Source: Streptomyces sp. NBC_01689 (GTDB lineage Bacteria; Actinomycetota; Actinomycetes; Streptomycetales; Streptomycetaceae). Taken from it: a stretch of 64,000 nucleotides of DNA. The notes below the pieces were generated by a model. It saw only the letters and a program-made list of their open reading frames with translations, ran no database searches and was not told where the DNA came from. Made by a program: the position numbers and the translations under genes. Shown one piece after another: positions 24,429 through 42,623 of the stretch. The DNA lies in contig NZ_CP109592.1 of NCBI RefSeq assembly GCF_036250675.1, positions 1,922,001-1,986,000 of the forward strand, in the 5' to 3' direction. The number at the start of each line of letters is the position of its first letter. Position 1 is the first letter of the stretch.

Positions 24429-24509
24429 CGTCTGTGTCGTGCCCTTCTTCGCGCGGGTGGTCCGGGAGGGGTGGCCGGGGTGGGGGTACGTGTCAGGTGG
24501 AGCGGTCGG

Positions 24510-26197: not shown

Positions 26198-26989
26198 TCA
26201 GAAGCTGGGGACGTGGGACAGCAGGGTCACCAGCCGCTCGGCGGGGGCGAACAGCGGTTCCAGGCGTTCGTACTCGGCGGCCTTGTCCGCCGGGGCGAGA
26301 GCGCGTCCGGGGGTGAGCGCGGCGTGGAGGGCGAGGCCGCGCCCGACGATGGCGTGGTGCAGGATCCACAGGACCGGGACGGTCACGCCCGCGGGCTCGC
26401 GCCCGCAGGCGACCAGGGCGACCGCACCGCGCAGGTTCTCGGTCACCGCGACCTTCGCGATCACGTCCTGGAAGGGTGCGAGCAGCGAGTCGAGCGGGGA
26501 GGGCGCACCCGCCCCGGACGCGAGGCGGTCGCACTTGGTGAAGACCAGCACGAGCGGGGTCAGCCGCCCGTCGCGCCCGGCGAGGGCCCCCTGCGCCACG
26601 GCGGCCATGCGATGCAGGTCGGCGCGGTACCGGTCGTCACCGAGCAGGCGGGGCGCGTCGGCGAACAGCATGATCCCGTCCGCGCGGGCCAGACCGGGGA
26701 GCAGCCCCACACCGGTCTCTCCCGCGCCGTACCGGTGGTCCCGCCAGCGCACCGGCAGCACGGCGCGCCCCCGGTGATGGAGCACCAGCTCCAGGACCTC
26801 CCGCCGCCGCCCCGCGCCCGGGCTGCGCCCCCGCAGCACCTCCTCGGCCGCCGAGGTGAGTTCCTCGTGCAGGGACGCCTCCCGCGCACAGAGCCCGAAG
26901 CCCTGGATGCCGTCACGCATCGCCGCGTACATCAGCGCCAGGTAGCTGTCCTTCCCGACCCCGCCGGGTCCGAGCATCACGATATCCAT
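26198..26989 (-). CDS. TRAFAC-type GTPase with altered P-loop
   Basis: A 263-aa cytoplasmic P-loop protein. It begins MDIVMLGPGGVGKDSYLALMY: the Walker A is GxxxxGK followed by Asp-Ser rather than Ser/Thr. A G4-like TKCD lies near residue 150. DGIMLFADAPRLLG (near residue 105) fits the switch/strand region. The sequence resembles small GTPases (DO-GTPase type) described in NTP-dependent conflict systems; this is recall, not a search. AAGGAG five bases from the ATG supports the start. It is divergent from the Crp/Fnr gene, sharing a 253-base control region. Confidence 0.6.
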   Translation of the reverse strand: MDIVMLGPGGVGKDSYLALMYAAMRDGIQGFGLCAREASLHEELTSAAEEVLRGRSPGAGRRREVLELVLHHRGRAVLPVRWRDHRYGAGETGVGLLPGLARADGIMLFADAPRLLGDDRYRADLHRMAAVAQGALAGRDGRLTPLVLVFTKCDRLASGAGAPSPLDSLLAPFQDVIAKVAVTENLRGAVALVACGREPAGVTVPVLWILHHAIVGRGLALHAALTPGRALAPADKAAEYERLEPLFAPAERLVTLLSHVPSF

Positions 26990-27115
26990 AAGGCTCCTTC
27001 GGCTGGCACGCGGGCGGCCGGGCCATGGTCGCGGAGCGAACCGGGCAAGAACCGGTCAGGTGACCGGTTGCCTGGACAAGGCATGACGAGTCGCGACACC
27101 ACGAGGGGAATACGT

Positions 27116-27139
27116 ACACTCTTTCGACCTCAAGAGTGT
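27116..27139. promoter_or_regulatory. Perfect inverted repeat between divergent GTPase and Crp/Fnr genes
   Basis: ACACTCTT, 8 spacer bases, AAGAGTGT: perfect 8-bp arms. It lies centrally in the 253-base divergent region, with a further half-like AACTCTT at 27162-27168. GGAATACGT immediately precedes it (27107-27115) and recurs before the next operon. It is a good candidate operator for the adjacent Crp/Fnr-family regulator, though it does not match the E. coli CRP consensus. A hairpin function cannot be excluded. Confidence 0.5.
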
Positions 27140-27242
27140 TCTGTCCATCTGATTCACCGACAACTCTTTTGTGCGCTAAGTTCCTCGCACCGGCTCACCG
27201 GTCCGTGCACGAGGCGGACGGTGTCGACCGAGGGGGGACCAT

Positions 27243-28130
27243 ATGCGCGACCACATTCATCCCGGCCCCACGAGCCACTCGACGCCCTCGAGTCGCTGGC
27301 CGCAGGGGACACTCATGGCCAATCTGTCGCCCGACGACCGGGACGCGCTGCTGCGGCAGGGCCGTGTCGTGCGGTACGAGACCGGCGACGTACTCATCCG
27401 CGAAGGCGGGCCGGAAACCACCGTGCTGCTGCTCACCGACGGCTGCGTCAAGGTCGTCGGTGCCGTCGAGGACGGGGGCACGGTACTGCTCGCCCTCCGG
27501 GTGCGGGGCGAACTGGTCGGTGAGGTCTCGGCTTTGGACGGGCAGCCGCGCTCGGCCACCGTGATCGCCGCCCGCCCCACCGTCACCCGCACCCTCACCA
27601 GTACCGTCTTCCTCGCCTTCCTCCGGGAGAGCCGGGACGCGGCGGAGGTCGTGCAGAGATCCGTGGCGGGCAAACTGCGCGGCGCCACCCGCCACCGCAT
27701 CGACACCAGCGGCGGCACGGCCACCGTCCGGCTGGCCCGCACCCTGGACAACCTCGTCCGCAGCTACGCGCGCGCCGTGCCCGAGGGGCTGCGGATCGAC
27801 GTACCGCTCAGCCACACGGACCTCGCGGCGCTCGCCGGGATCTCCGACGCGAGCGTGCAGCGGGCGCTGCGCAGTCTGCGGGCCGCCGGGGCGGTGACGA
27901 CCAAGTACCGCGGGGTCGTCATCCGTGAGCCGGACATCCTGCGGGCCATCGCCTCCCAGAGCGGCTGGCCCGCGGCCGACCCCGGTGCGCTGCCGGGCGT
28001 CCCCACCCCCCGCGCGCCCCGGCCGCCCCGTCCCAAGCGGGCACCGCTCGAACCGCCCGCGCCGCACGTGGAGTCGGCCACCCGTCTCGCCGCGCCGGCC
28101 GGCGGCACACCGCTGTCCGAGGCCGGCTGA
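27243..28130 (+). CDS. Crp/Fnr-family transcriptional regulator
   Basis: A 295-aa regulator. The cyclic-nucleotide-binding beta-roll spans about residues 25-140 (YETGDVLIREGG, then RVRGELVGEVSALDGQPRSATV). The C-terminal Crp-type winged helix reads LSHTDLAALAGISDASVQRALRSL (near residue 205). There is no N-terminal cysteine cluster, so it is not an FNR-type oxygen sensor. The last ~60 residues are Pro/Arg-rich and disordered. The start has AGGGGGG a few bases upstream. It probably controls the operon that begins 183 bases downstream and/or the divergent GTPase. Confidence 0.85.
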   Translation: MRDHIHPGPTSHSTPSSRWPQGTLMANLSPDDRDALLRQGRVVRYETGDVLIREGGPETTVLLLTDGCVKVVGAVEDGGTVLLALRVRGELVGEVSALDGQPRSATVIAARPTVTRTLTSTVFLAFLRESRDAAEVVQRSVAGKLRGATRHRIDTSGGTATVRLARTLDNLVRSYARAVPEGLRIDVPLSHTDLAALAGISDASVQRALRSLRAAGAVTTKYRGVVIREPDILRAIASQSGWPAADPGALPGVPTPRAPRPPRPKRAPLEPPAPHVESATRLAAPAGGTPLSEAG

Positions 28131-28210
28131 TCCACCCGGTCCGCCGGGCCTGATGCCGGGAGCGGACCGGGTCGCCGGCCCGGGTCTCCGGCCCGGCGGA
28201 CCGCGCCTGA

Positions 28211-28240
28211 AGGTGAATACGTCAGCGGAATACGTCACCT
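28211..28240. promoter_or_regulatory. Nested direct and inverted repeat upstream of the membrane-apparatus operon
   Basis: GAATACGTCA occurs twice (28215-28224 and 28228-28237, 13-base period). The block is bounded by perfect arms AGGTGA (28211-28216) and TCACCT (28235-28240). GGAATACGT also stands before the Crp/Fnr gene. The block lies 74 bases before the GTG of the first operon gene, a plausible regulator binding site for the adjacent Crp/Fnr protein. Confidence 0.5.
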
Positions 28241-28313
28241 GACCGAATCTCGCCGCAGCGACGCGCCGACAGTGGCCCGGTGACAACCGGCCACTTACGG
28301 GGGGTGGTGTGCT

Positions 28314-30245
28314 GTGAGGCTGTTCCGGCTCGTTCCGCACCGGAGGCGAGGACGCGCACCCGCGCAGCCTCCGGCACCGGGTCCCACTCATCGCGAACCG
28401 GCCTCTTTGTCGTCGGAGTTGGCCGATCTGGCGGGGCATCCGAGACTGGCCAGGCACAGCGCGGCGTTACGCGATCTGGCGGACGCGGTCAGCAGTGGCC
28501 GCGGCCTGGAGGTGTGGGCGGGCGGCAGCCTCGTCGCCGCCTACGGAGGGCCCGACGCGCTCGGCGACGGCCCCGCCGAGACGGGCGACCGGGCACGCCG
28601 CCTCGGGCTGCTGCCCACCGCGCTCGTCTTCGTGCCCCTGCTGATCACCTGGTTCGGACTGGGCGCGGCCGCCTGGGCCAACCAGCGCATGGACGACTCC
28701 GGCGGACGGTCCGAGGGTTCCTTCCTGACCCTGTGGCAACAGGGCTTCGACGGACATCTGTGGCCGTTCCTCCGTTTCGACATGATGGCGGTCTGGACGG
28801 TGCTGGCACTCGCCGCGCTGGCCACCACCACCATGCTGCGCCACCGCTGGGAGGAGCGGGACGAGCGCGAACGTCTGGTGCTCTCCCAGCGGCTGTCCGG
28901 AGCGCTCGCCCAGACCGAGGCCCTCGCGATCCGTGCGGCCGCCACCTCGCCCCGCCGGTTCACCGAGGAACTGCAGGGCGCGGCCGAGGAGTTGCACACG
29001 CTCCTCGGCCGCGCCGCCGACGTCCAGGAGGGCGCGCGCCGGGCCGTGGCCCAGGCGGACGGAGCGACCGACCGCACCGTGACGGCCCTGGCCTCGCTCG
29101 ACTCGGCACTCGTCGTCCTGCGCGCCGGAGCCTCCGAGGCGCGCGAGGCCACCCGGGGCGCGTCCACCGCCGCGGGACAGGTCGCCCAGGGCGCGGAGAT
29201 GCTCGCGAGCGGGGTGGCCGCGTCCGTGGCGGCGCTGCGCGAGACGGTCGGCGAGGCGGGAAAGGTCGCCGCCGAACACATCGGCGCGGCCGGCACGGCC
29301 GTCGCCGACCGCTTCGACGCGGTCACCTCGGCCGCCGAACTGCGCGGGTCCGCCGTGGCCGACCACGCCACCGAATCCATGGAGCGGATCCGGGACGAGG
29401 CCAGGGAGACCCTGGAGAGAACGCGGGCGTCCCTGGACGAGTCGGCCCGGCTCCTCGCCACCACCGTGCAGGGACTGGACCGCACGCTCACCACGCTGCC
29501 CACCGCCCTGGAGGGTTCGGCCGCCGAGGGAGCAGACCGTATCGGCATGGCGTACGACATGGCGGTCACCGCCCTCGCCGCCTCGCTGCGCCAGGAGGTG
29601 CGCGAGGTCTCCGCCGAACTCGCCGACCGCATCGACCAGTTGCACACCGTCGTCGAAGGACAGCGAGCCGTCCAACGGGACCTCGGCGGCGGTCAGGAGC
29701 GGATGAGTGAACTGCTCCACGCCGCCACGGCCGAGTTCGAGCGGGCGCTGCGCCGCGTCACGGACGGCCTCGACGAGGCGGGACGCTCCGTCATCCACGG
29801 AACGGCCGAACTCGACGCGGCCACTGAGAAGTTGCGACGTACGACGGACGGCTTCCGGGCCTCCGCGGGCCCGATGTCCGATCCAGCTCCCGAGCCCGGT
29901 CCGGAGGCCGGCGTCGGCCCGGGCTCCGAAGTGCCGCACCGCAGGCCCGCGCATCCCATGCCCCCGGCCTACGGAACCCATCCGTTCGGCGCTCCGGGTC
30001 CGGATGCCCGGCCCCGGCCCCCGCTCGGCGACCCGCACGACGCCACGCGCACCCGTGTGCCCGGACCCGTCCCCGCACCCGCCCCTCCCTCCGCGTCCGC
30101 CACCGTGCCCGCCACCCTGCCCGTGGATCCCGAACCCGCGACCGCCCCCGAACCGGCCGACACCCTGGAGAGCCCGTCGACGCACCGGCTGCGCCGACCC
30201 GTGCCGAGCGATGCCGGGGACCAGCGGCGGGAGGGAACGCGGTGA
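28314..30245 (+). CDS. Two-TM coiled-coil membrane protein, MotA/ZorA-like position
   Basis: A 643-aa protein. After ~95 soluble residues come two hydrophobic segments (LLPTALVFVPLLITWFGLG near 100-118 and MMAVWTVLALAALATTTML near 157-175). A ~350-residue Ala/Glu/Thr-rich coiled coil follows (repeats like AREATRGASTAAGQVAQGAE), then a Pro-rich tail. The layout, membrane pair plus long cytoplasmic coiled coil directly before a MotB/ZorB-like gene, resembles ZorA/MotA-type stator proteins, but only two spans are clear and sequence identity is not obvious. Stop overlaps the next start (GTGA). Confidence 0.55.
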   Translation: MRLFRLVPHRRRGRAPAQPPAPGPTHREPASLSSELADLAGHPRLARHSAALRDLADAVSSGRGLEVWAGGSLVAAYGGPDALGDGPAETGDRARRLGLLPTALVFVPLLITWFGLGAAAWANQRMDDSGGRSEGSFLTLWQQGFDGHLWPFLRFDMMAVWTVLALAALATTTMLRHRWEERDERERLVLSQRLSGALAQTEALAIRAAATSPRRFTEELQGAAEELHTLLGRAADVQEGARRAVAQADGATDRTVTALASLDSALVVLRAGASEAREATRGASTAAGQVAQGAEMLASGVAASVAALRETVGEAGKVAAEHIGAAGTAVADRFDAVTSAAELRGSAVADHATESMERIRDEARETLERTRASLDESARLLATTVQGLDRTLTTLPTALEGSAAEGADRIGMAYDMAVTALAASLRQEVREVSAELADRIDQLHTVVEGQRAVQRDLGGGQERMSELLHAATAEFERALRRVTDGLDEAGRSVIHGTAELDAATEKLRRTTDGFRASAGPMSDPAPEPGPEAGVGPGSEVPHRRPAHPMPPAYGTHPFGAPGPDARPRPPLGDPHDATRTRVPGPVPAPAPPSASATVPATLPVDPEPATAPEPADTLESPSTHRLRRPVPSDAGDQRREGTR

Positions 30246-30823
30246 CCCGCCGGCCGGGACGCGCCACGGTGCCGTACCTCGCGGGGTGGCTGTTCGCGGA
30301 CGTGCTGCTGGTGATCGTGCTGGTGGTGCTGGGAGGCGAACAGACCCCGCACGACCGGACGGCGGCGCGGGACCCGTCGCCCGCGGCGGCGCCGACCCGC
30401 ACCGCACGGCCGACGGCGACGCCGGAACCGGCCCCGAGCCCCACCTCGACGCGACGGGCCGGGACGGCCGGGCTCGACCCGGCGACCCGGTCGATCACCG
30501 TGCACACGGACGCGGACGCCCTGGTCGCGGGCTCGAAGGCCGCGAAGGCGGATCTGGAGCGCCAGGTCTCCGACGGGATCGGACGGTTCAAGGGGCGGAC
30601 CGCGGCCTTCGTCATGGTCTTCGGGACGGTCCACGGCGTGGGGGGAGCCGTCGACAGCGGGCGCAGCGACGCGTACGCCACCGCGGTGGCCCGGCTGCTG
30701 CCGAGAACCGCCCCCGCCTTCTTCCCGCCGTACTCGGAGAAGATCATCCGCGGCTACCACGACAGCAGCGGCGACATCGGCTCGGGCACGGCCCGGATCG
30801 AGCTCTTCTTCCTCCTGCGGTGA
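30242..30823 (+). CDS. MotB/ZorB-like protein with degenerate OmpA-type domain
   Basis: A 193-aa single-span protein. The N-terminal membrane helix GWLFADVLLVIVLVVLG (about residues 13-29) carries one aspartate, the hallmark of MotB/ZorB stator helices that take part in ion flow. A Pro/Thr linker (residues ~40-75) follows. The C-terminal ~100 residues resemble an OmpA/MotB peptidoglycan-binding fold: FVMVFGTVHG, then SGRSDAYATAVARLLP, ending ARIELFFLL. The start overlaps the preceding gene by GTGA, so the two are probably made as a pair. Confidence 0.6.
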   Translation: MTRRPGRATVPYLAGWLFADVLLVIVLVVLGGEQTPHDRTAARDPSPAAAPTRTARPTATPEPAPSPTSTRRAGTAGLDPATRSITVHTDADALVAGSKAAKADLERQVSDGIGRFKGRTAAFVMVFGTVHGVGGAVDSGRSDAYATAVARLLPRTAPAFFPPYSEKIIRGYHDSSGDIGSGTARIELFFLLR

Positions 30824-30975
30824 ACTCCTCCCCCCGACCCGGTTTCCTCCCCCGTCCCTGATCCGAGCACCCGGACCGGCGACCCGGCCCGCCCGACCGG
30901 CCCGCGCCGAGCCACCCGTACGGCGCGCGCGGTTCGCAGCGCACCCACCCACAGCCCAACGGAGCGTGGAGCATC

Positions 30976-33624
30976 GTGACCGTCTTCAAGAAGAACCCGA
31001 GCCTCTCGGAGCTGCGTGAGTTCACCCAGCAGACCCTGACCATGCTCAGTGAGCAGACCCTCCCGGACACACCCGAGGCGTACGAGTCCCGCGACCGGAT
31101 CCAGTCGCTCGCGGCCGAGCTCGACGCCCGGCTGAACGCACCGGTCACCATCGGGGTGGTCGGCGAGTACTCCGTCGGCAAGTCCCTGCTCCTCGGCACC
31201 GTGCTGGGCAAGCCCGACCTGCTGCCGGTGGAGGCGGGACCGAGCACCGGCAACATCACCGTCCTGGAACTGTCGCGCGGCGAACCTGGCCGGCCGACCA
31301 CCGCCGCCGAGAACACGGACGTCGCCTTCCTCACCGAGAAGCAGCTCGCCGCCTGTGTGGGCGCGGTCCTCGACGACCTGGTCCGCGTGCTGGACGAACG
31401 GCACCCCCAGCTCGGCGCGGGCGCCGCGCTCGCCGGCTACAACCCGGTGACCGATCCACGGGGTTGGGCCCCCTTCGAGGCGTGGTACCCGAAGCTGTGG
31501 CCCGCGGCCGGCGGACCGGTCTCCTACGAGGCGATCGGCGCCGGGCACCGGGACGCCGTCACCGAGCTGTGCCGGATCCGCGACGCGGCGCTCAGCCAGC
31601 GCGACCTGCTCGGCACCTCGGTCGGGGTGTCCCGCGAAGCCGTCGGCGCGGCGCTGGTCCTCGGCGCCGCCCAGCGCACCCCCGAGACCCCGCCCAAACG
31701 GGTCGTGCGGCCCTTCGACACCGGTCAGTTGAAGAACACCGACACCGAGGCCGCCGCGGAGGCGCTGCGCCGCGCGTTCCCGCTGGTCGAGAAGGTGACA
31801 CTGCGGGTGGAGGTCTCCCCCGACCACTGGGACCTGTCCGGGCTGATCTCGCAGGACACCGCGGTACGGCTGCTGGACTTCCCGGGCATCAACGCGGCCG
31901 GCTCGTACGGCCGCGACACCTTCCTCAGCCGCCGCGAACTGGTGTCCGTGCACACCATCCTGCTGGTCATCAGCGCCGTACGCGCCGAGTCGAAGGGCGC
32001 CTCGACGTTCTGGGACATGCTCACCGAGGACGGCCGGGAGCCGCAGGCCCTGGCCAGCGCGGCCCTCGTCGCGGCGAACGCCTTCGACCTCGCCAAGCCG
32101 CCCGCGCTGCACGACGTACCCGAAGGCCCCCTGCCCCTGAGGCAGTTGCTGTCGCACTCCGCCGAGGTCAACGGCGTGCACGTGTACGGGAACAAGTTCG
32201 TGCACCATCGCGAGGACGGCATCGTGGCCGTCTCCTCGATCGCCGGCATCCGCGCGCATCAACTCCCCTACACGGAGGCCTCCCCGGAGACCAGGGAACG
32301 CATCCACAAGGCACTGGCGGACCTCGACCCGCCGGGCGCCGAACGCTGGGAGAAGATCGCCGACCGGCTGCGCCGTGCCGACGAGACCAACCCCTGGACG
32401 GACCGGCTGCGCGCCTACGACAACGACGGCGGGATCCAGCGGCTGCGCCTGCTGATCGACCACCACGTACGCCGTCACGGACTGGACCAGAAGCTGGAGC
32501 GGGCGCGCGGCTCGCACCGCAGGCTGTGGCGGGAACTGAGCCTGCTGCAGCGCCAGGTCCACCGGGCGGCGGGCGGCGACCAGCCCGAGGAGTACCGCGA
32601 ACTGGCGCAGAGACTGGGCGAGTTCCGCGCTCTGCTCGATCTGATGCTGCCCACGCTGTACCGGCTCAGCAGCCCCGTGCCGCGAGGCACCGGGTCCGAC
32701 GACGCCTCGTACGCAGCCGAACTCGGCGGACGGCCGCCCCGCCGGGAGGAGATCGCGGACTCGGTGCGCGACGACGTCTTCGACTGGCGGGAGTGGCAGG
32801 AACTGCTGGGCCGCGCCGAGCGGGACCGCAACCACCTCGTCCCGCGCAGCGAACCGCCCGCCCAGGGCGGAATCGACCAGCTGGTGCGGCCCGGCCGGAC
32901 CTCCGCCGTCGCGGCGGAGGCGCCCGGTGGTGAGGAGTCGGCCGATGTCACGATGACCTTCCTGGACAAGTTCCGCACGCTCGTCGACCGGCGCGCGGGC
33001 GAGGAACACGATCAGCTGCGCGTCTGGTTCGACCAGTGGGCGGCCTACTGGCAGGGCGAGTTCGGACCGCTGCGGGAGTGGATGGCGGACCCGGCCACCG
33101 ACGCTCTGCTCAACGACCTGTTCACCCGGCTGCGCGGCAGCGCGCACCGGGCCGACATCCAGCTGAACCACCTGTGGACGGCACTGAACCCGACGCACGC
33201 GCGACAACGGGTCGGGGAACTGGCGTCGGTGCCCGGTCCTACACCCGCCGACCAGGAGAACCGCTTCCCGATGCGCTCTCCGCACGCGCTGCCCTGGGAC
33301 CACCGCATGCCCCGGCTGGAGGACCAGCGCTCCGAGGAACGCGAACGGCACCCGCTCCTGGTGGTGCAGATGCGCCAGCACACCGCGGACGCCGCGGCCC
33401 GGCTCGTCACCGAACACCTCGGCCGCACCCTCGCCCTGATCGAGAAGGACCTGGTCGCCCTGTACTCGAAGACCGTGGAGTACCTGCCCCGGGAGAACGA
33501 GGTGCGCGCGCCGCGCAAGCCTCTCGGAGCGGACCCGCACTCCGGCGAAGAGGGCGCCGGTGCCACGGAGGTGCCGGTCGAAGAGCCCATCGACATCCTG
33601 ATCCGAGCCTGGAGCGAAGACTGA
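30976..33624 (+). CDS. Dynamin-like GTPase, SrfC-like
   Basis: An 882-aa protein with a complete dynamin-type GTPase head. G1 is GEYSVGKSLL (about residues 61-70), G2 region PSTGNIT, G3 LDFPGINAAG near residue 302, and the G4 region ANAFDLAKP near 370. The C-terminal ~500 residues are predicted helical (stalk/effector) with charged coiled-coil-like stretches. The protein lacks a signal peptide or obvious TM, so it is peripheral or cytoplasmic. It sits directly before an actin/Hsp70-fold partner, as srfC sits by srfB in enterobacterial srfABC clusters (recalled). GTG start with GGAG upstream; next gene starts after 1 base. Confidence 0.72.
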   Translation: MTVFKKNPSLSELREFTQQTLTMLSEQTLPDTPEAYESRDRIQSLAAELDARLNAPVTIGVVGEYSVGKSLLLGTVLGKPDLLPVEAGPSTGNITVLELSRGEPGRPTTAAENTDVAFLTEKQLAACVGAVLDDLVRVLDERHPQLGAGAALAGYNPVTDPRGWAPFEAWYPKLWPAAGGPVSYEAIGAGHRDAVTELCRIRDAALSQRDLLGTSVGVSREAVGAALVLGAAQRTPETPPKRVVRPFDTGQLKNTDTEAAAEALRRAFPLVEKVTLRVEVSPDHWDLSGLISQDTAVRLLDFPGINAAGSYGRDTFLSRRELVSVHTILLVISAVRAESKGASTFWDMLTEDGREPQALASAALVAANAFDLAKPPALHDVPEGPLPLRQLLSHSAEVNGVHVYGNKFVHHREDGIVAVSSIAGIRAHQLPYTEASPETRERIHKALADLDPPGAERWEKIADRLRRADETNPWTDRLRAYDNDGGIQRLRLLIDHHVRRHGLDQKLERARGSHRRLWRELSLLQRQVHRAAGGDQPEEYRELAQRLGEFRALLDLMLPTLYRLSSPVPRGTGSDDASYAAELGGRPPRREEIADSVRDDVFDWREWQELLGRAERDRNHLVPRSEPPAQGGIDQLVRPGRTSAVAAEAPGGEESADVTMTFLDKFRTLVDRRAGEEHDQLRVWFDQWAAYWQGEFGPLREWMADPATDALLNDLFTRLRGSAHRADIQLNHLWTALNPTHARQRVGELASVPGPTPADQENRFPMRSPHALPWDHRMPRLEDQRSEERERHPLLVVQMRQHTADAAARLVTEHLGRTLALIEKDLVALYSKTVEYLPRENEVRAPRKPLGADPHSGEEGAGATEVPVEEPIDILIRAWSED

Positions 33625-33625
33625 C

Positions 33626-36600
33626 ATGAGCACCGAGCTGACCATCTCCTTCCGCGCCCCGCACGCCGATCCGGCCTCGGGTGTCGTGCCGTTGGGCCGC
33701 CGGCACTTCCGCCTCCACACGGGTCCCGAGGGCACGGCGCTGCCCGAGGTCGTCCTGGAGCAGGAGGGCACCGGCGGCAGCCGCATGGTGACTGTGCACC
33801 TGCCCGCCCGGATCGAGGTCATCACCCCCAGCGGCGGCCTCGTACCGGCGCAGCTGGCGCAGGCGCTGGCCGACTGCTGGGTGCCGCAGCAGTACACGTC
33901 GATCACCGTGGAGGGACCGCGCACCCTGTCCCAGGACACCCTGCTGCCCACGGCGCTGGTGCACCCCCCGTCCGCTCCACCGGCCGCCGCCGGCGACGAA
34001 CCGCTGCGGCTGGACGTGCACTGGAGCGTCGACTACGCGTCGGTCGAGCACGCGGGCACCGCCCACGGCAGCGTCATGCTGGAGTTCGCGCCGCTGGGCG
34101 AGGAGCCCTCGGTGGCACCGCGGCCGGAGGACGACGACGAGTTCCTGACACTGCGCGACATCACCGGCAGCACGCACGAACACGAGTTCATCGTGGTCGA
34201 CTTCGGGACGACGGCCTCCACCGCCACCCTGCACGACCCGACCCGGATCAGGGCACAGCTGGTCGATCCGGCCCAGGCCCGTTCCCTGACCGGCCTGTTG
34301 ACGGACCTGCTCGCGCCGCCCGCCGACGCCCCGGCGGAATGGCGCAAGGAGGTCGACGCGCTGCTGACCGGCCCGGTCGCGCTGCCCCGCAGGAACGTCG
34401 AGGTGACGGGCGCCGAGGCACTGGCCCGGCTCGGCGACCCCGATGTCGCCGACGCGCTGATGCTCCGTGTCGAGGCCCTCCGCGAGCAGGCCGGCCCAGA
34501 ACTGCGGCGCTGGCTCAACCGGCGGCTCCACGCGGGCTACGCAGAGGTCATCGGCACCCCGCCGCTGAACCGCCACGCCCTGCGGGCCGTCGAGTACCCG
34601 GACGACTCGGGCCGCCTCACCACGGCCCCGGCCAGCGCGCTGCGCGAGGTCGAGTACGCGGAGGGCACGGTGCCCGAGCATCCCCGCGACCGTGGCTTCG
34701 TGCTGTGCGGCAACGGGCCCGAGGGGGTGCCCGGTGTCGAGGGGCTGACGGGCATCAAGCGGGCGGCCCTGCAGCTCACCCCGGAGCCGGTGGCGGACTC
34801 CGACATGTCAGCCGACCATCTGGCGCAGCACATGTACCTGTTGCTGGTGGACGGCGCCGAACAGACCACCTACAACCCGGCGCTGAACACGATCAGCCGG
34901 ATGGCGACGGTCGTCGTCACGTATCCGACGACGATCCTGCCCGAGGTCAAGGAGAAGCTGGAGAAGCTGGTACGCACGGCGCTCGGCGGCCCGCGCGTCG
35001 TCATGGACTTCGACGAGGGTCTCGCGGCCGGGCTGTACTTCCTCATGGGCGATCTCACCGACAACCTCAACGCGGGCCTGGAGTCGCTGCGCGCCCGCTG
35101 CCGACGGGTCGGTGACAAGCCGCCGACATGGCAGCGGATCATGCTGGTGATCGACATCGGGGGCGGCACCACCGACATCGCGCTGCTGCGGCTGACCCTC
35201 GTCGACCAGACACCCGACCTCGGCGACGACCAGGAGTTCGTGGCGGGCCGGGACTACCGGCTGGAGCCCGAACTGCTGGGCTCCACCGGGCACGAACGGC
35301 TCGGCGGCGACCTGCTGACCCTCCAGGTCCTCTACTGGATCAAGGCCCGGCTGGTGGATGAACTGAGCCTGCAGGAACCGTCGTTCGGCGAGGAGTCGGC
35401 CGACGACGGCGAAGGCGGCGGGCTCGACGCACCGGGCCGGCGCGGGGACGTACCGCGGCGCGCGTACGCCGACGCGGTGGCCGAGCGCGCGGCCGACGAA
35501 CTGGACACGATCGTCTCGCCCGAGGTCCGTGCGGTTCTCTCGGAGGCGCTGCCCACGGACTGGGCGGGGATCACCGACCCGGCCGAACGGGACGCGCGCA
35601 GAACCCGGTTCGAGCTGCTGTGGAGGCTCGCCGAGCTCAAGAAGCGTGAACTCAGCGCGCGTGGCGCCGGGGACGCCGTGCTGGAGCCGGAGCGGGTGGC
35701 CGACATCCTGAACGCGGGGCCGAACCACCGGCTGGGCACGGTGCAGGGTCAGATCACCCTGGACGCCGGGCAGTTCGCCAAGCTCGTGCAGCCGGTGCTG
35801 CGACGGGCCGCCTCGCTCGGCGCCGACCTCGTGCGCGGCTCGTTCCGCCGGGCCCATGAGGAGAACGAGGAACGGCGCGCGAAGGGTCTCCCTGAGCTGC
35901 CCGAACCGCTGCTCGACCAGGTGGTGCTGTCGGGACGTACCAGCCGCATGGCCCAACTCGAGGGTGAGGTCCGGGCGGTGCTGCGGCAGAAGGGCGCGGA
36001 CGGCGGCGACGGTCTCGGATGGCACAAGAACACCGAGTTGTCGGCCGAGGTGAAGTACGCCAAGCAGGTCACCTCGCTGGGCGCGGCCTGGGCCCATTCG
36101 GTGCGCAACGTCGCGGGACAGGTCGAGCACGACCGCGTCGACGGCGGGCGCGCCGGTGCCACCATCCGGCTCAGCGATCTGGACATCAGGCTCCAGGGGC
36201 TGTTCTCCAGCCTGCCGTGCGACTTCGGGCCACGCGGTCACATGGACCGGGTCACACCGCTGCTGCGGGCCGGCGACCCCTACGTCGAACTCGACACCTC
36301 CGGACGGCTCGGGGTCCGTACCGGCTGGAACGCGCTCAGCCGCACCCTGTCGATCCACCGCTACCTCGGCTCCGGCGACTCCCTGCAGTGGGGTGCCTTC
36401 GATCTCGCCCTGGCCGCGAGCGCGGAGGGCTTCGCACCGGCCCGGTCGGTGTGGCGGCCGCCCAGCGGCAGCCGGCGCGGTGTGCGGTACCAGATCGAGA
36501 TGGACAACCGGCTCGTGCCGTACATCCTGCTCTGCAACGGCCCCGCCCATCTGCTCGTCGACGGACCCTCGGTCCCGCTGCACGGGGCGGCACCCGGGCT

Positions 36601-37114
36601 GGTCTTCGACGCCGACCTGCCGGGCTGTTCGGTGCCCGGCCGCGTCTGCGTCGACGCGGGCACGGACGAGCACGGCGTACGGCGACTGGTGGAGGTGTTC
36701 CCTCCGACCTCACCCGACCTGGCCGGCGACGCGGTCGTGTCCGCAGAGGGCTATCTGCCGGAGTCCTTCCACCCCACTCTCGACCTGCACGACCCGCCGG
36801 TACCCGGGCGCGTCGCCGCGATCCCGGTGCCGCCCACGGACGTGAACAACACCTTCACCTACGAGTTCTTCCTGGACCGCGGCGACGGGGCGCCGGTCTT
36901 CCTCGGGTATCTCCCCGCCGTCCAGGACGGCCGGCACCACGCCACGCTGGACGCCCACGGCCAACTCCGCGTGCACCGCGGCCTCGTGCCGTACCTGCCC
37001 GCCGAGAAGCTGCGCCAGGTGGAGGAGGTTCCCGGCCGGGTGCTGCGTCTGCGGATGGACCCGCCCACCAACAAGCTGAACCACCACTGGGATCCCAACA
37101 GCGGGAGGCACTGA
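33626..37114 (+). CDS. Actin/Hsp70-fold ATPase, SrfB-like
   Basis: A 1162-aa cytoplasmic protein. The ASKHA-fold phosphate motifs are clear: VVDFGTTASTATL (about residues 190-202) and VIDIGGGTTDIALL (about 508-521), with an adenosine motif VVLSGRTSRMAQLEGEV near residue 767. The N-terminal ~180 residues and C-terminal ~350 residues are extra domains; the tail has beta-rich stretches (YLPESFHPTLDLHDPPVPG). Length and position next to a dynamin-like gene resemble SrfB of the srfABC clusters. It may polymerise or act as a nucleotide-switched scaffold. The stop overlaps the next start (TGATG). Confidence 0.72.
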   Translation: MSTELTISFRAPHADPASGVVPLGRRHFRLHTGPEGTALPEVVLEQEGTGGSRMVTVHLPARIEVITPSGGLVPAQLAQALADCWVPQQYTSITVEGPRTLSQDTLLPTALVHPPSAPPAAAGDEPLRLDVHWSVDYASVEHAGTAHGSVMLEFAPLGEEPSVAPRPEDDDEFLTLRDITGSTHEHEFIVVDFGTTASTATLHDPTRIRAQLVDPAQARSLTGLLTDLLAPPADAPAEWRKEVDALLTGPVALPRRNVEVTGAEALARLGDPDVADALMLRVEALREQAGPELRRWLNRRLHAGYAEVIGTPPLNRHALRAVEYPDDSGRLTTAPASALREVEYAEGTVPEHPRDRGFVLCGNGPEGVPGVEGLTGIKRAALQLTPEPVADSDMSADHLAQHMYLLLVDGAEQTTYNPALNTISRMATVVVTYPTTILPEVKEKLEKLVRTALGGPRVVMDFDEGLAAGLYFLMGDLTDNLNAGLESLRARCRRVGDKPPTWQRIMLVIDIGGGTTDIALLRLTLVDQTPDLGDDQEFVAGRDYRLEPELLGSTGHERLGGDLLTLQVLYWIKARLVDELSLQEPSFGEESADDGEGGGLDAPGRRGDVPRRAYADAVAERAADELDTIVSPEVRAVLSEALPTDWAGITDPAERDARRTRFELLWRLAELKKRELSARGAGDAVLEPERVADILNAGPNHRLGTVQGQITLDAGQFAKLVQPVLRRAASLGADLVRGSFRRAHEENEERRAKGLPELPEPLLDQVVLSGRTSRMAQLEGEVRAVLRQKGADGGDGLGWHKNTELSAEVKYAKQVTSLGAAWAHSVRNVAGQVEHDRVDGGRAGATIRLSDLDIRLQGLFSSLPCDFGPRGHMDRVTPLLRAGDPYVELDTSGRLGVRTGWNALSRTLSIHRYLGSGDSLQWGAFDLALAASAEGFAPARSVWRPPSGSRRGVRYQIEMDNRLVPYILLCNGPAHLLVDGPSVPLHGAAPGLVFDADLPGCSVPGRVCVDAGTDEHGVRRLVEVFPPTSPDLAGDAVVSAEGYLPESFHPTLDLHDPPVPGRVAAIPVPPTDVNNTFTYEFFLDRGDGAPVFLGYLPAVQDGRHHATLDAHGQLRVHRGLVPYLPAEKLRQVEEVPGRVLRLRMDPPTNKLNHHWDPNSGRH

Positions 37115-39048
37115 TGACCGACGCCCACGACCGGGAGCCGGGAGACGCGCTCGCGCTCCGGCTCGGTGCCTTCGCCGAGGCCGCAACCGCCGTACTGGAT
37201 TCGCCCTCCCGGTGCGGACAGGCGCTGTTCGATGCACTCCACGAGTTCTGGCAGGCTCTCCAGAACGTCCCCGGCCATCTGCCTCCCTACCGGGACGATC
37301 GGCGCGAGGTCGTCGAACGCTTCGTGGAGGCGCGCACCCAACTGGGGTGGGCCCTGAGCGAGGCGTCGGCGCTCGCGGCGGCCCCGCACGGCCGCCGTCC
37401 CGAGGAGGACGGCACACCGGCCCCGCACGGACCCGAGGTCGGGACCGATCCCGAGGACGGTGGGGACGGACCCGAAATCGGGAACGAAGCCCGTCGCCCG
37501 GCGCGGGACGAGGACAGGGCCGGGGACGGGGCCGAGGTCGACGGACAGGGAACGGGCTCGGGCTCGGGCGGGCGAGCCGGCGGGACCGACGAGGGCCAGT
37601 CCGCCGAGGACAACGGCACGGACGCCGGGACGGAACCGCCCGGAAGGGATCAGGCCGCCGGCTTCCCGTCATCAGCCGCGGACGGGGTGGGGAGTCCCGG
37701 GCCGTCGAAGGTTCCGGAGACCCCGGTGGCGTCGGTGACCCCCGAGGCGCCGGAGGTGGCGGAGCCGTCCAGGACACCAGGAACAGCGGACGAGGTGGAT
37801 CAGGGAAATCCAGGAGCTCCGACAGGCGACGGGGTTCCTGAGGCGCCGGAAACTCCTGGGACGCGGGGAATTCCTGAGGTGCGGGGAATTCCTGAGGTGC
37901 CGGGAGTTCCGGACGCGCCGGTGATTCCCCCGAAGCCGTCGGTGCCGCCGCGCCGACCCGACTCCACGCAAGCGGTCCTCGCCCCCGCGGAGTCAGGGGG
38001 CCGTCGGTCGGCGCCGGGCACGTCGCCCGGTTCCCCGCCCGGCTCCAGCGCGGCGCCTGTGGAGCCGCTGGCCGACTTCGCGACCGCGCTGGAACGGCTG
38101 GAGTCGGAGCTCAGGAGCGAACAGATCCGCTACCTCCCCCCGCCGGCGCCGCCGCGCCGGGACGACCGCGACGCGGACGCCGCCGAGCTCGTCGGGCGGA
38201 TCTGGCGGCGTGTCCACATGGCCCTGCTGCGGCTGCCCCACGACGTGGCGGCGGAGTGGCGTACGACGACGGCGGCCCAGGCCTCCCTCGCGGGGCTCGC
38301 GGCACCCGACGAGGAGGTCGGCGACCCCGACGTGATCGTCCCCGGGCTGCCGGACGGCCTGCACGGCGCGGAGCGGCTGCCGCTGGACCTCGCCGACCTG
38401 CCGGCCGCCGCCGCGGCCGTCGACGCCAAGTTCCACCGGTACCTGGGACTCGGGGCCGCGGAGATCGGGGCCCTTCCGCCCGGCGATCCCCGCCCCGCCT
38501 GGGCGGTGCGCGCGGCCCAGGCCGAACGGCTGGCCGCGCTCGACCCCGAACTCCACGTCGCGCTCCTGCACGACCACCAGCCGGGCAGCCTCGCCGAGCA
38601 GGAGCACCGGGACAAGTACGAGCGCCGGCTGGCCTCGCTGCTGCGCACCGCGGGACAGGGACTGGACGCGAAGATGGCGTGGACGCGGGAGAACCGGCTG
38701 GGTGCCGCCCACAACCTGGACATGGTGCTGGGCGGTCTGGTCCACAAACGCCCCGCCGCACCGGAGAGTTGGTGGTACCAGTGGCGCACCCGGGTCTCCC
38801 GGATCCTGATCCCGCTCGCCGAGGACGCCAACTACGAGGTGATCTTCCGGCCGTTGGAGGATCTGCGCCGGGACTTCGCCGCGGAGTACACGATCGCCGA
38901 GACCGTGAAGGGGGTCGCCGGGGCCGGCGAACCCGAGGTGCAGTGGGTGGTGTGGACGGCGTTGCGACGGAAGAAGAACGCCGCCTACGGACCCAACAGG
39001 CACAAGGGGCGGGTCGTCGTACGCCCCGCCGAACCCACCCGGCGGTGA
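37114..39048 (+). CDS. Linker-rich protein of the SrfBC-type operon, unknown function
   Basis: A 644-aa protein. Residues 1-85 are helical (LRLGAFAEAATAVLD, then DALHEFWQALQNVPG). Residues ~90-330 are low-complexity Gly/Pro/Asp/Glu, including a tandem GIPEV repeat. The C-terminal ~310 residues form a conserved-looking helical domain (SESWWYQWRTRVSRILIPL is the flavour: PESWWYQWRTRV is visible near residue 549, then PLAEDANYEVIFRPLEDLRRDF). It may occupy the place of SrfA in srfABC-type clusters, but I see no sequence proof. Start overlaps the SrfB-like stop. Confidence 0.55.
   Translation: MTDAHDREPGDALALRLGAFAEAATAVLDSPSRCGQALFDALHEFWQALQNVPGHLPPYRDDRREVVERFVEARTQLGWALSEASALAAAPHGRRPEEDGTPAPHGPEVGTDPEDGGDGPEIGNEARRPARDEDRAGDGAEVDGQGTGSGSGGRAGGTDEGQSAEDNGTDAGTEPPGRDQAAGFPSSAADGVGSPGPSKVPETPVASVTPEAPEVAEPSRTPGTADEVDQGNPGAPTGDGVPEAPETPGTRGIPEVRGIPEVPGVPDAPVIPPKPSVPPRRPDSTQAVLAPAESGGRRSAPGTSPGSPPGSSAAPVEPLADFATALERLESELRSEQIRYLPPPAPPRRDDRDADAAELVGRIWRRVHMALLRLPHDVAAEWRTTTAAQASLAGLAAPDEEVGDPDVIVPGLPDGLHGAERLPLDLADLPAAAAAVDAKFHRYLGLGAAEIGALPPGDPRPAWAVRAAQAERLAALDPELHVALLHDHQPGSLAEQEHRDKYERRLASLLRTAGQGLDAKMAWTRENRLGAAHNLDMVLGGLVHKRPAAPESWWYQWRTRVSRILIPLAEDANYEVIFRPLEDLRRDFAAEYTIAETVKGVAGAGEPEVQWVVWTALRRKKNAAYGPNRHKGRVVVRPAEPTRR
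37863..37898 (+). repeat. Tandem 18-base repeat inside the linker-rich gene
   Basis: Two perfect copies of an 18-base unit (GCGGGGAATTCCTGAGGT), followed by a degenerate third, encode the RGIPEVRGIPEV region. The unit is visibly more AT-rich than its surroundings. Repeat number could vary among strains. Confidence 0.85.
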
Positions 39049-39051
39049 ACG

Positions 39052-40509
39052 ATGGCCCCGCAGGGTGGCACACCCCGCGCGCCCGTGGCACGGCCCGCCG
39101 CCTCGGGTCCGTCCGCCCGTGCTCCGGGCGCCGTGTCGGCGGCCCGGCTGCTCGGTGCCTGTTGGACCGGGCGTGCGAACGGCCTCTCCCCGCAGGTGGT
39201 GGCGGACCTCGCCGCGTCCTGCGCCGCGGCCGACGGCAGCGCTCGTCCGGAGCCGCCGGTGTTCCGGGTGGCCGTCCTGCGCACCGGGACGGCCGCCGCA
39301 GGTCTCGTTCCCCTGCTCACCGGGGTCCGGCTGCCCGAACCCCCGGCGGCGACGGACCTCGTACCGCTTCTCTACGCCCATGAGCCCACGGCGGTGACCG
39401 AGTTGCGGATCACCGAGGGATGTCGGCGGGCTCTCGACCGGCTGGCCCGGCAGCTCCTGCGGGACACCTCCGCGCGGGGCACGCCACCCGGCCCCGGGGC
39501 GGACCGGCACGGGACGGTCACCTGGCTGCGGATCCGCGCCGAGCAGGGGCGGGACCGTTTCTTCGCGACGCGCTGGACGGGCCGGGACACCGTCGCCCGG
39601 GCCTGGCGGCGTGTCCAGGACGTGACGGCGTCGGGCACCGGGTTCACGCCCCGCACCACCACGCCGGATTCGGCCGACGGAGCGGACGGACCGGCGACGC
39701 TGTCCGCCGCCTTCGCGGGCGCCCCCCTTCCCTGGCCCCCGGCCGGCGACCGTGTGCGTGACGGGCTGCGCGTGACGGTCACGGACGTTCCCGTACCGGC
39801 GACGGGCGCCCCCGCTCCGTACGCCCATGAGGTCCTGGAGTCCGCGCACCTGGTGCTGGCCGCCGCGCCGCATGCCGGACTCGCGGGCCGGGAACCGCTG
39901 TCCGCCGGTTTTCGTGAACTGCTCGCGGGTTCGACGGGTGGTCCGTGCCGAGCGCCCATGGTTCTCGTGTCCTGCGTACCGGAACACGACGGCGCCGACT
40001 TCCTGCCCGGTCTGGCCGGCTGGCTGCGCGGCGTCCTGCCGCACACCGTCGGGCCGTTCACTCGTGGTCTGCCCGTGCACGCGGTCTCCGTACCGCGGGC
40101 CGAGGAGGCCCTGCGTGTCCTGCTGCTCCCGGTGGACCGTGCCGCGCCCGCCCGGGCTCGGGCCGAGGAGCAGTGGGCCGCGAGCGGGCTGCGCACCCTG
40201 TGCGCCCGGGTCCTCGAGCCCGCGCTGCGGGACGCGCCGACCACCGTGGCGCGGCTCGCCGCCCGGCGTCTCCGGGCGGCCCTGCACGACATCCGGCTCG
40301 ACGGGTCCGACGTCCGGCCCGGCACGGGCCGTGCGTCGTCGGCGGCCGGGGTGCTCGCCTCCGAGGTGCCGGCCCGGCAACTCTGGGACGAGCTGGACCG
40401 GTTCGCCGCGGTGCCGCTGGCGCGGCGAACCGTACGACGGCCGTTCCCGGCCCCCGGACCGGACGACCACCCACAGGACGCGCGTTCACGAGGAGACGGC
40501 GCACCATGA
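39052..40509 (+). CDS. Dynamin-like pseudo-GTPase
   Basis: A 485-aa protein. Residues ~70-115 line up with a dynamin-family G1 segment: FRVAVLRTGTAAAGLVPLL, then GVRLPEPPAATDLVPLL. In dynamins this is V-x-V-x-G-x4-GKS-x-LL with LP and a G2 threonine; here the GKS is AAG, so phosphate binding should be lost. The G3-like segment is VTVTDVPVPATG (DxxG missing its glycine), then ESAHLVLAAAPHAGL. The G4-like MVLVSCVPEHDG lacks NKxD. The pattern suggests a catalytically dead partner of the true dynamin-like GTPase upstream. It overlaps the next gene by ATGA and follows the previous one by 3 bases. Confidence 0.6.
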   Translation: MAPQGGTPRAPVARPAASGPSARAPGAVSAARLLGACWTGRANGLSPQVVADLAASCAAADGSARPEPPVFRVAVLRTGTAAAGLVPLLTGVRLPEPPAATDLVPLLYAHEPTAVTELRITEGCRRALDRLARQLLRDTSARGTPPGPGADRHGTVTWLRIRAEQGRDRFFATRWTGRDTVARAWRRVQDVTASGTGFTPRTTTPDSADGADGPATLSAAFAGAPLPWPPAGDRVRDGLRVTVTDVPVPATGAPAPYAHEVLESAHLVLAAAPHAGLAGREPLSAGFRELLAGSTGGPCRAPMVLVSCVPEHDGADFLPGLAGWLRGVLPHTVGPFTRGLPVHAVSVPRAEEALRVLLLPVDRAAPARARAEEQWAASGLRTLCARVLEPALRDAPTTVARLAARRLRAALHDIRLDGSDVRPGTGRASSAAGVLASEVPARQLWDELDRFAAVPLARRTVRRPFPAPGPDDHPQDARSRGDGAP

Positions 40510-41852
40510 CCTCCACCACCTGGCTGATCACCCTTCTCGTCCTGTCGCTGGCGGGGAACGCCGTACTCGCCCTCCGGGCGTCGCGGACAGGCCGCACCAC
40601 GCCGCCGTCGGCACCCGTCGTCACCGCGTCGGCGGAGTCGTCCGGGACGGACGACGGACACCGGCACTCGACGTCGGCGTGGGATGCCGTGCGCCGGGAA
40701 GTGACGGCGGCACACGAACTGCTGCGCGGCCGCGACCTCGAACTGTCGCGGGTGAGAGCACTGTTGAAGGACACACAGGAGAAGTCCGCGACCGCCGCCC
40801 TGCAGCCCGCGGGAGTGCGGCAGGAACTGCACGCCGCGCGGCAGCGGTTGCGGGCCCTGGAGGGTGAGGTGCGTGATCTGGCGCGGGAGCGGGACGACGC
40901 GCGGTCCGACGCGGACGGTCTGAAACGGCGCCTCGCCGAGGCGGAGGCCGAGGGCGGTACGCCGCTCGGTCCGGACGCGCTGTCCCCGGCGGTCCCCCGG
41001 CGGCTGCCGCTCGGCCGGGACGCGACGTCGGACAGCAGTGTCGACGGCGCGGACCTCGGACCGCTCGTCGTCCGGGCCGCGTCGGTGCGCGGCGACCGGG
41101 CCCGGCGCGAGGGGGAGCACCGGCGCGAGGCGTTCCTGCTGAGGTTCGTCGAGGAGATCCGGACACCGACGCTGCTCAGCGCGGTGGCGGCCGGGGTCCC
41201 GCACGGACGGTGGTCGCAGTCCGCGGCCGACCGGGCATGCCGCAACCTCGCCGCGCAGATGGCCCGTTACGGGGACACGCTGGGCCATCAGCTCTACCGG
41301 CCGTCCGGCCCGGACGACGATCCGACCGGGCTGCTGCGGACGGCGTTGCAGGGGGTGGCGCACTCCATGCGGCTGGTCACGCGCGGGGAGGGGCCGGGCG
41401 GCGAGCCGGACGACGCCGCGATCGGGGTGGCGCTGACGGGGCTGCTCTCGCGTCTGGGCGACAGCCGGCAGCGGGAACACCTGGCCTTCGGGATCGGCGA
41501 CGGTGCGCTGATGATGCTGCGGGACGGGGTCTGGAGCAGTGTGTTCACGCCCGGCGACACGGCCGCCGAGCGCGGATCACTGCTGCCCGCCGCCGCCCGG
41601 CGGGTGCGCTGCGCCCGTCTGACCACCCGCCCGGGCGACCTGCTGGCCCTGTGCAGTTCCTCCCTCGCGGAACTGCTGGCGCACCCCGAGGCCGGGGACT
41701 GGTTCGCCGCCCGCTGGGCGGGGCGCCGGCCTCATCTGACCTCGTTCCTCTCGGAGGTGAACGTACCGGTGCGGTCTCCCGGAGGTGACAGGACCGTCGT
41801 CTGCCTCTGGGACTTCGGGGACGCCCGGGACACCCCGCCCACGGATTCCTGA
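40506..41852 (+). CDS. Membrane-anchored coiled-coil PP2C-like pseudo-phosphatase
   Basis: A 448-aa protein. One N-terminal membrane span (TWLITLLVLSLAGNAVLAL, about residues 5-23), a coiled coil (about residues 65-150, LHAARQRLRALEGEVRDL), then a PP2C-like domain. The PP2C motifs are recognisable but lack the metal-binding acids: RREAFLL where RQDAF is usual, AAGVPHGRWSQSAAD where ADGxGSAxxS is usual, and LALCSSSLAE where LLCTDGLAE is usual. GGDRTVVCLW keeps one Asp. FGIGDGALMMLRDG is conserved. It is probably an inactive sensor or scaffold. Last gene of the operon; its stop lies in a terminator hairpin. Confidence 0.65.
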   Translation: MTSTTWLITLLVLSLAGNAVLALRASRTGRTTPPSAPVVTASAESSGTDDGHRHSTSAWDAVRREVTAAHELLRGRDLELSRVRALLKDTQEKSATAALQPAGVRQELHAARQRLRALEGEVRDLARERDDARSDADGLKRRLAEAEAEGGTPLGPDALSPAVPRRLPLGRDATSDSSVDGADLGPLVVRAASVRGDRARREGEHRREAFLLRFVEEIRTPTLLSAVAAGVPHGRWSQSAADRACRNLAAQMARYGDTLGHQLYRPSGPDDDPTGLLRTALQGVAHSMRLVTRGEGPGGEPDDAAIGVALTGLLSRLGDSRQREHLAFGIGDGALMMLRDGVWSSVFTPGDTAAERGSLLPAAARRVRCARLTTRPGDLLALCSSSLAELLAHPEAGDWFAARWAGRRPHLTSFLSEVNVPVRSPGGDRTVVCLWDFGDARDTPPTDS

Positions 41853-41883
41853 CCCGGACGGGAGCGCGTTCCCGCCCGGGTCA
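41850..41883. terminator. Terminator hairpin overlapping the operon stop codon
   Basis: A near-perfect 16-bp stem with a short loop: TGACCCGGACGGG on the left pairs with CCCGCCCGGGTCA on the right (two mismatches). The left arm begins with the TGA stop of the pseudo-phosphatase gene. It separates the plus-strand operon from the convergent broken PASTA gene. Confidence 0.65.
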
Positions 41884-41930
41884 GGAGCGGTGCGGCGGCG
41901 CCGGGCGGGGGGGTGCTGCCGGACTCGCCG

Positions 41931-42623
41931 TCACTCGCAGATCCGCGGCGGGGCCGGCTTCTTGCCGAGGGTGATCGATACCGTGGAACCCGGCGGGCCC
42001 GGGGTGCCGGCCCCGGGGTTCTGGCTCCGCACCCGGTCGACGCTGTCGCAGTCCACCGTGGTGCTCACCGTGCCCAGCGCGTAGCCCGCCGCGGTGACGG
42101 CCAGGCTCGCCTGTGCCCGGGTGTCACCCCGCACGTCCGGGACCACGGTCACGCCGGTCACCGAAGCGGTGACGGACGCCAGGTGCCGGCTGTAACCGGT
42201 GTCCGAGGACAGGTCGACCACGGTCATGTCTCAGGTGACGCTGCCGGTCGACCCGATGAGCACCGACCTGGCCCCGCCCCCGTCGGGGAAGTCGGTGGTG
42301 CCCGGGTCGAATCCGGGCCCGCTGATCACGAGTGCGTCCTCGGCACCGCAGGCGATGCCGTCGGCGCCCCACCGCACCACGGCGTTCTGTCCGTAGACCA
42401 CGGGTGACGGCGTGACGGAGATCTGGCCCGTCGCGCCCACCGCGCACTGCAGGCCCGGATCGTCGGCGTACGCGGGTGTCACCGCGAAGGCGGTCGCCAG
42501 GACGGCGATCGCCGTCAGCAGGGCCGCCCTGGGGGAGCGCCTCAGCCGTGCGGCGGCGGCCCGCGGCAGGGACGCTCGCCCGGCGGGCCGTCGGCGGCCC
42601 GGCAGTACTGGTTGTGCCCTCAT
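41931..42623 (-). pseudogene. Secreted PASTA-domain protein interrupted by an in-frame TGA
   Basis: The frame starts at ATG 42623 with GGAGA upstream and encodes a long Arg-rich n-region, a signal peptide ([19 protein letters not shown]) and a beta-sandwich-like domain. At 42231-42233 a TGA interrupts the frame after GSTGSV-T. The same frame continues directly (D-MTVVDLSSDTGYSRHLASV) and ends with a PASTA-like domain (VTVVPDVRGDTRAQASLAV, then DRVRSQNPGAGTPGPPGS) and PRICE. Replacing TGA by TGG (Trp) restores a 230-aa protein, so a single-base nonsense change or sequencing error is likely. Function unknown; PASTA domains bind cell-wall fragments. Confidence 0.7.

Follow-up and report, generated by a model that had tools for sequence, protein, structure and literature searches.

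Evidence for a SrfB/SrfC-related, membrane-associated NTPase apparatus with a conserved core and exchangeable partners in Streptomyces sp. NBC_01689

The window analysed here is a stretch of 64,000 nucleotides from Streptomyces sp. NBC_01689 (NZ_CP109592.1, positions 1,922,001-1,986,000 of the forward strand), and all positions are given in window coordinates. It carries seven plus-strand genes, labelled A to G, preceded by a gene for a Crp/Fnr-type regulator and by GTP1, a divergent gene for a P-loop protein (Table 1). The comparisons described below support the view of this block as a cohesive membrane-associated nucleoside triphosphatase (NTPase) apparatus, in which a dynamin-like guanosine triphosphatase (GTPase, C) and an actin/Hsp70-fold adenosine triphosphatase (ATPase, D) related to SrfC and SrfB are combined with a MotB/OmpA-like protein (B) and a dead relative of PP2C (G). 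A previous reading of this DNA from its letters alone (the sequence-only reading) had described seven tightly packed genes at 28314-41852 with a single wider gap. The coordinates bear this out, with overlaps or gaps of 1-4 bases at all junctions except for the 152 bases between B and C, and the reading frames of A to G were supported by the guanine-cytosine content at the codon positions.

Table 1. Genes and features of the A-G block and its upstream region (window coordinates).
Feature	Position	Strand	Description
GTP1	26198..26989	-	Divergent P-loop protein, 263 residues
Crp/Fnr-type regulator	27243..28130 (start possibly 27315)	+	Cyclic-nucleotide-binding domain (Pfam, expectation values 2e-16 and 2e-13)
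A	28314..30245	+	Two hydrophobic segments (about residues 97-115 and 157-175), long coiled coil
B	30242..30823	+	One membrane helix with invariant Asp20, Pro-rich linker, OmpA/MotB-like domain (about residues 80-193)
C	30976..33624	+	Dynamin-like GTPase, SrfC-related
D	33626..37114	+	Actin/Hsp70-fold ATPase, SrfB-related
E	37114..39048	+	Helical N-terminal part, low-confidence linker of about 220 residues, mainly helical conserved C-terminal domain with SWW motif
F	39052..40509	+	Fast-evolving protein, possibly a degenerate P-loop GTPase
G	40506..41852	+	One N-terminal hydrophobic segment, coiled coil, PP2C-like domain without catalytic motifs
Inverted repeat	41847..41886		Two 20-nucleotide arms, 90% complementary, overlapping the end of G

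A set of 22 actinobacterial loci, the window included, was compared by a six-frame profile search using profiles built from the same loci. Since the sequence of locus L051 starts inside D, upstream genes were scored in 21 of them. C was found upstream of D in all 21 loci with sequence there, and E downstream of D in 21 of 22. The sole locus without E (L048) holds a 452-residue frame of no recognised family in its position, and at L011 the match to E is weak (expectation value (E-value) 8e-4). The core is made up of C, D and E, the latter being a component without known relatives. Homologues scattered over unrelated loci, which the sequence-only reading had named as speaking against a joint apparatus, were not what we found; C and D stand together in every locus with sequence there, and E follows in all but one. 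In five relatives that lack the A-G block, similarity to the window goes no further than 25539-25628. Genome G816 has GTP1, the regulator, A, B and C in unchanged order but in other surroundings, about 1.7 kb of different sequence separating the P-loop protein from the regulator. The region from about 26.2 to 41.9 kb therefore behaves as a unit.

The distribution of the core is patchy. Counting the window's own genome each time, D as query matched 10 of 392 genomes at the level of the genus, 3 of 150 at that of the family and 2 of 296 at that of the phylum; the D profile matched 8 of 394 genomes of the class. A protein search gave 38 D proteins (among the candidates sharing most words), with Streptomyces, Streptacidiphilus, Kitasatospora and Actinoplanes among the organisms, and 41 B proteins, the organisms among these being Streptomyces or Kitasatospora. 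For 10 of the 41 B clusters the longest contig equalled in size that of a D cluster, as judged by eye, which is expected if B and D are co-located. Other forms of the core are found in Streptosporangium, Micromonospora, Actinomadura and Kineosporia.

C carries the motifs GxxxxGKS and DFPG and matches Dynamin_N (E-value 1.3e-7), in agreement with its earlier description as an intact dynamin-type GTPase. Within the C family Dynamin_N was matched in 21 of 21 members (E-values up to 0.1), GxxxxGK[ST] and DxPG were each present in 20 of 21, and the solved structure nearest to C is the bacterial dynamin-like protein 2j68 (E-value 3.4e-10). D carries DFGTT and DIGGGTTD, the DxGTT/DxGGGTTD pattern by which an actin-fold ATPase had been recognised. 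Profiles of SrfA, SrfB and SrfC were built from seven plasmid loci, nine stretches having been fetched. Comparing profiles with hhalign, C matched SrfC with a probability of 96.2 (E-value 2.2e-9) over 92 columns covering the GTPase part only, and D matched SrfB with a probability of 97.6 (E-value 3.4e-12) over 350 columns. SrfC against three other dynamins reached an E-value of 0.0047, far weaker than SrfC against C. The Pfam family PF10139 (SrfC) was matched by 4 of 21 C members at E-values up to 0.1 (best 8.9e-4), the window C giving no match, and PF07520 (SrfB) by 15 of 20 D members at the same limit, the window D scoring 21.0 bits and thus falling under the curated cut-off of 27.1. Judged from these profile comparisons, C is homologous to SrfC and D to SrfB, pairs that the sequence-only reading had already brought up for comparison. 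C shares its GTPase domain with the bacterial dynamin-like proteins (BDLP, LeoA, DynA/DynB), but differs from them in its place beside E and an ATPase resembling SrfB. According to PMC6104087, many dynamins of bacteria come as pairs of genes. A dynamin-like gene pair was also seen at L021 (15073-18787), about 2 kb behind its DUF4407-C-D-E-Crp block, and L057 has an additional dynamin-like gene. In the gammaproteobacterial loci L012-L018 the D profiles match one (L013) or two adjacent candidate, presumably Hsp70-like, genes of about 610-660 and 920-950 residues.

SrfB and SrfC are labelled as virulence factors in many records, their function being unclear. The window resembles the SrfA-SrfB-SrfC loci (PF07520, PF10139) in that the counterparts C/SrfC and D/SrfB are adjacent, co-directional genes of similar sizes, and some SrfABC loci, alphaproteobacterial ones, contain protease or vWA genes too. 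However, the order is SrfB followed by SrfC there and GTPase followed by ATPase here, and SrfA has no relative among A to G, E included. Compared with the SrfA profiles, E gave E-values of 0.19 or worse and A, B, C, D, F and G of 0.1 or worse. Apart from C with SrfC and D with SrfB, all comparisons of the actinobacterial families with the Srf profiles, these included, reached 0.057 or worse, while the two SrfA subgroups matched each other at 1.6e-15. A single-sequence match of G to a Mesorhizobium SrfA-like protein (E-value 0.0086) was lost with profiles (0.16 or worse). No A, B, F or G was noticed among the genes annotated around the fetched SrfABC loci. Three of five distinct alphaproteobacterial loci (Mesorhizobium japonicum, Methylobacterium, Cereibacter) have trypsin-like genes upstream of the gene resembling SrfA, and two of the five (Cereibacter, below the Pfam cut-off, and Gluconobacter) have vWA genes downstream of it. 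Plasmid-borne alphaproteobacterial SrfBC loci showed trypsin-like genes at L134, L138 and L139, and vWA plus ABC-type genes at L139 and L140. In Xenorhabdus the SrfA, SrfB and SrfC proteins associate into a complex, according to portions of PMC6950479.

The surroundings of the core are modular. A and B were found in 5 of the 21 loci and a DUF4407 membrane protein in 7 (Pfam E-value 6.9e-57 at L021), never together with A/B, giving a membrane module of either kind in 12 of 21; A/B is absent from 16 of these 21 core-bearing loci. G is present in 7 of 22 loci. At L053 and L056 (2 of 22) CHAT and caspase genes follow E with 4-base overlaps or a 1-base gap; their His and Cys motifs are present, and the L053 genes match with Pfam E-values of 1.5e-47 (CHAT) and 1.2e-16 (caspase). 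The CHAT gene that lies upstream at L057 did not show the His/Cys patterns, and a related caspase-type gene at L054 lacks the DAC motif. A kinase-like gene follows E at L010, L054 and L055 (Pfam APH, above cut-off at L010 only). At L011 and L052 weak minus-strand CHAT or caspase matches lie farther away. A tree of the 22 D proteins separates 14 loci with DUF4407 or A/B/G from 8 others (split support 100/99), and genomes of the window's genus fall on both sides of this main split. The A/B/G clade (100/100) lies among the DUF4407 loci (fork support 89/92, midpoint root). Together this suggests that the core was transferred between lineages and that A/B replaced DUF4407. As A/B is optional and in relatives either replaced by DUF4407 or absent beside CHAT/caspase or kinase-like genes, the motor-like part does not belong to the core.

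Sequence prediction gives A two hydrophobic segments and a coiled coil, and B a single span and an OmpA/MotB-like fold, the membrane Asp of B (Asp20) being invariant in 26 of 26 aligned B proteins. The former descriptions of A as a two-transmembrane coiled-coil protein and of B as MotB/ZorB-like with an Asp in its span were thereby retained. G matched PP2C over 191 columns (hhalign E-value 2.2e-4, probability 45), seven controls giving 0.089 or worse. The metal-binding Asp residues of PP2C lie in DG and SDG motifs, and both motifs were lost in 6 of 6 members of the G family. By these comparisons G is a dead PP2C relative, a pseudo-enzyme, and its N-terminal span agrees with the membrane anchor read before. 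The proposal that F is a motif-dead dynamin relative was not confirmed: F matched C at the DxP strand with an E-value of 0.16, while other families used as controls reached values as low as 0.048 and the best among 30 column shuffles gave 0.18. With a truncated sequence an E-value of 0.0066 had been obtained.

Patchy presence, transfer between lineages, inactive enzyme relatives and exchange of protease modules are listed among the marks of nucleoside triphosphate-dependent conflict systems in parts of Kaur et al. (2020, PMC7159879). As patchy presence, apparent transfer, an inactive enzyme relative and exchange of proteases come together here, we propose an envelope-linked switch that is most likely defensive. 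We tentatively favour, giving it somewhat less than even weight, an accessory, horizontally spread NTPase switch operon, built on a core of a SrfC/SrfB-homologous couple and the lineage-specific E, which would most likely limit envelope attack. The comparisons above show this core and its modularity, A/B being the membrane module in the window's branch; trigger, order of steps and purpose we infer as follows. A and B would form a membrane complex, in which the OmpA-like domain outside the cell membrane would report envelope disturbance. The Hsp70-like ATPase D would keep both the GTPase C and the adaptor E inactive within a complex and, once triggered, would free C, which could then assemble on the inner membrane face and reshape, seal or break the membrane, G and F acting as putative non-catalytic scaffolds or inhibitors. 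In the sister branches the C-D-E switch would control the CHAT/caspase protease pair or the kinase-like protein. The likeliest purpose would be to limit attack on the envelope, by phage or otherwise, in an organism growing as hyphae, perhaps with one compartment being sacrificed; direct membrane repair would be the next likeliest.

The GTPase-centred/HSP70 systems covered in parts of Kaur et al. (2020) combine, in various ways, NTPase switches with HSP70, peptidases, PP2C, membrane parts and inactive enzyme domains, and GTP1 has a weak DO-GTPase2 match below the cut-off. In contrast, the GTPase of the window is dynamin-like, and the Pfam matches of the nine block proteins include no GAP1 protein. 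The words Srf, dynamin, CHAT and DUF4407 are absent from the main text of PMC7159879, as are Srf, dynamin and DUF4407 from the related PMC8195603. A literature search lacking most subscription papers found none joining SrfB/SrfC with dynamin or joining ZorA/ZorB, dynamin and Streptomyces, and no related one on dynamin with CHAT, caspase, SrfB or DUF4407; in the literature on SrfB/SrfC, phage defence and GTPases neither protein was among the matches listed.

Several observations weigh against an envelope-linked defensive switch. For the core, a library of defence proteins gave weak local matches only (C with LeoA at 16.9 bits, D with PDC-M61B at 15.7 bits), and none of 72,556 plasmid records or 50,697 phage records matched D. 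D also matched Hsp70-like proteins (E-value 1.1e-10, 119 columns), so that the margin favouring SrfB is moderate. SrfABC is described in portions of PMC6950479 as a toxin on insect and mammalian cells, a differing role. No protease was recognised among the Rhizobium and Gluconobacter genes scanned, nor at two enterobacterial loci where SrfA-B-C lies amid ordinary neighbours. L009 and L046 have neither a membrane module nor a protease or kinase gene, and L052 has G but no A/B although it falls inside the A/B clade. Since L053 and L056 are close relatives, the CHAT/caspase pair perhaps reflects a single event. Finally, a measurable likeness of A to MotA/ZorA is not supported by its sequence, its ZorA matches in the PADLOC scan being coiled-coil ones.

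The main rival, a serious though unlikely contender, is envelope maintenance, with C as a stress-recruited membrane-sealing dynamin, D as its chaperone, and A/B or DUF4407 as tethers to the damaged envelope. The proximity of C to 2j68, the frequency of membrane modules and the roles of bacterial dynamins in membrane stress and Streptomyces division, reported in sections of PMC6104087, are consistent with it. However, presence in so few genomes of the genus is unlike housekeeping repair, and the CHAT/caspase genes at L053/L056 and the trypsin-like genes beside SrfBC are poorly explained by repair alone.

A Zorya-type ion-driven motor, in which A/B would be a stator-like channel with Asp20 carrying ions and the tail of A driving C-D-E, appears quite improbable. 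Its appeal lies in the adjacency of a two-span coiled-coil protein and a single-span protein with a helix Asp and an OmpA-like domain, the layout of ZorB, and in the coiled-coil tail that A and ZorA have in common. In Zorya the ZorB Asp (D24), peptidoglycan binding by ZorB and the ZorA tail matter, as stated in parts of PMC11890865, and A/B may, by analogy, work like a stator. The coiled-coil part of A matched ZorA tails with a probability of 91, but coiled coils match one another easily. Moreover, A gave no MotA/TolQ match, and its membrane segment matched ZorA with an E-value of 0.022 compared with 0.031 for DUF4407 as negative control, the same method detecting ZorA against the pooled MotA family with a probability of 93. 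The MotA/B-like character named in the sequence-only reading was thus not recovered for A. Profile comparison did not link B to ZorB. The GHT motif present in four of four ZorB proteins is absent from the 26 aligned B proteins, which makes wall binding by B doubtful. ZorC, ZorD and ZorE were not found among the nine block proteins in the PADLOC scan, the core being a GTPase/ATPase couple instead, and A/B is missing from most core loci. L093 carries two different ZorA/ZorB pairs on one contig, about 4.6 kb apart.

An accessory operon for sporulation or hyphal division, which would agree with the action of Streptomyces DynA/DynB in sporulation septation (sections of PMC6104087), is highly improbable given its rarity in the genus and the occurrence of the core in the four other genera named above. 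Least probable of all is an exported virulence or toxin complex like SrfABC acting on other organisms, which would fit the kinship of C/D with SrfC/SrfB and the reported cytotoxicity of Xenorhabdus SrfABC (portions of PMC6950479), but a GTPase and an Hsp70-like ATPase would presumably need intracellular nucleotides, membrane spans are predicted in A, B and G, the caspase/CHAT coupling in relatives fits an internal switch, and SrfA has no relative here.

Returning to the envelope-linked switch, the swapping of partners may point to a class of machines for defence or cell death in bacteria that has not been described before. A broader version, which we consider distinctly unlikely, would make SrfB-SrfC-type couples the switch of a large, unrecognised modular immune or cell-death class of actinobacteria and proteobacteria, whose output alternates between proteases (caspase/CHAT, trypsin) and membrane machines, the stator-like A/B of the window triggering a membrane-remodelling dynamin. 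Should this hold, a membrane module resembling a stator would be coupled to a dynamin and an Hsp70-like ATPase, and none of the papers searched describes such a combination. A core that stays constant while its caspase/CHAT, DUF4407 or MotB-like partners change, together with trypsin-like or vWA genes at some alphaproteobacterial SrfBC loci, leads to a testable proposal for the role of SrfB-SrfC.

With regard to the flanking genes, the sequence-only reading had placed a Crp/Fnr regulator and a divergent GTPase upstream. The regulator was confirmed by Pfam; the divergent gene encodes a P-loop protein whose DO-GTPase2 match is weak (E-value 0.006, 16.7 bits versus a cut-off of 27). Among the loci studied, a GTP1 homologue was found only in G816 (L049, L102). 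Crp/Fnr relatives adjoin the core on the plus strand in 4 of 22 loci; relatives also lie downstream of E at L021 (12435-13139) and downstream of the caspase gene at L053 (89-901), unlike the position in the window. The left neighbours at 22644-25598 on the minus strand are the large and small subunit genes of a NiFe hydrogenase. The inverted repeat that overlaps the last bases of G is a possible operon end, but it is absent from the output of the terminator scan. Directly behind the operon a 98-residue PASTA-domain protein is encoded on the opposite strand (41931-42227, minus).

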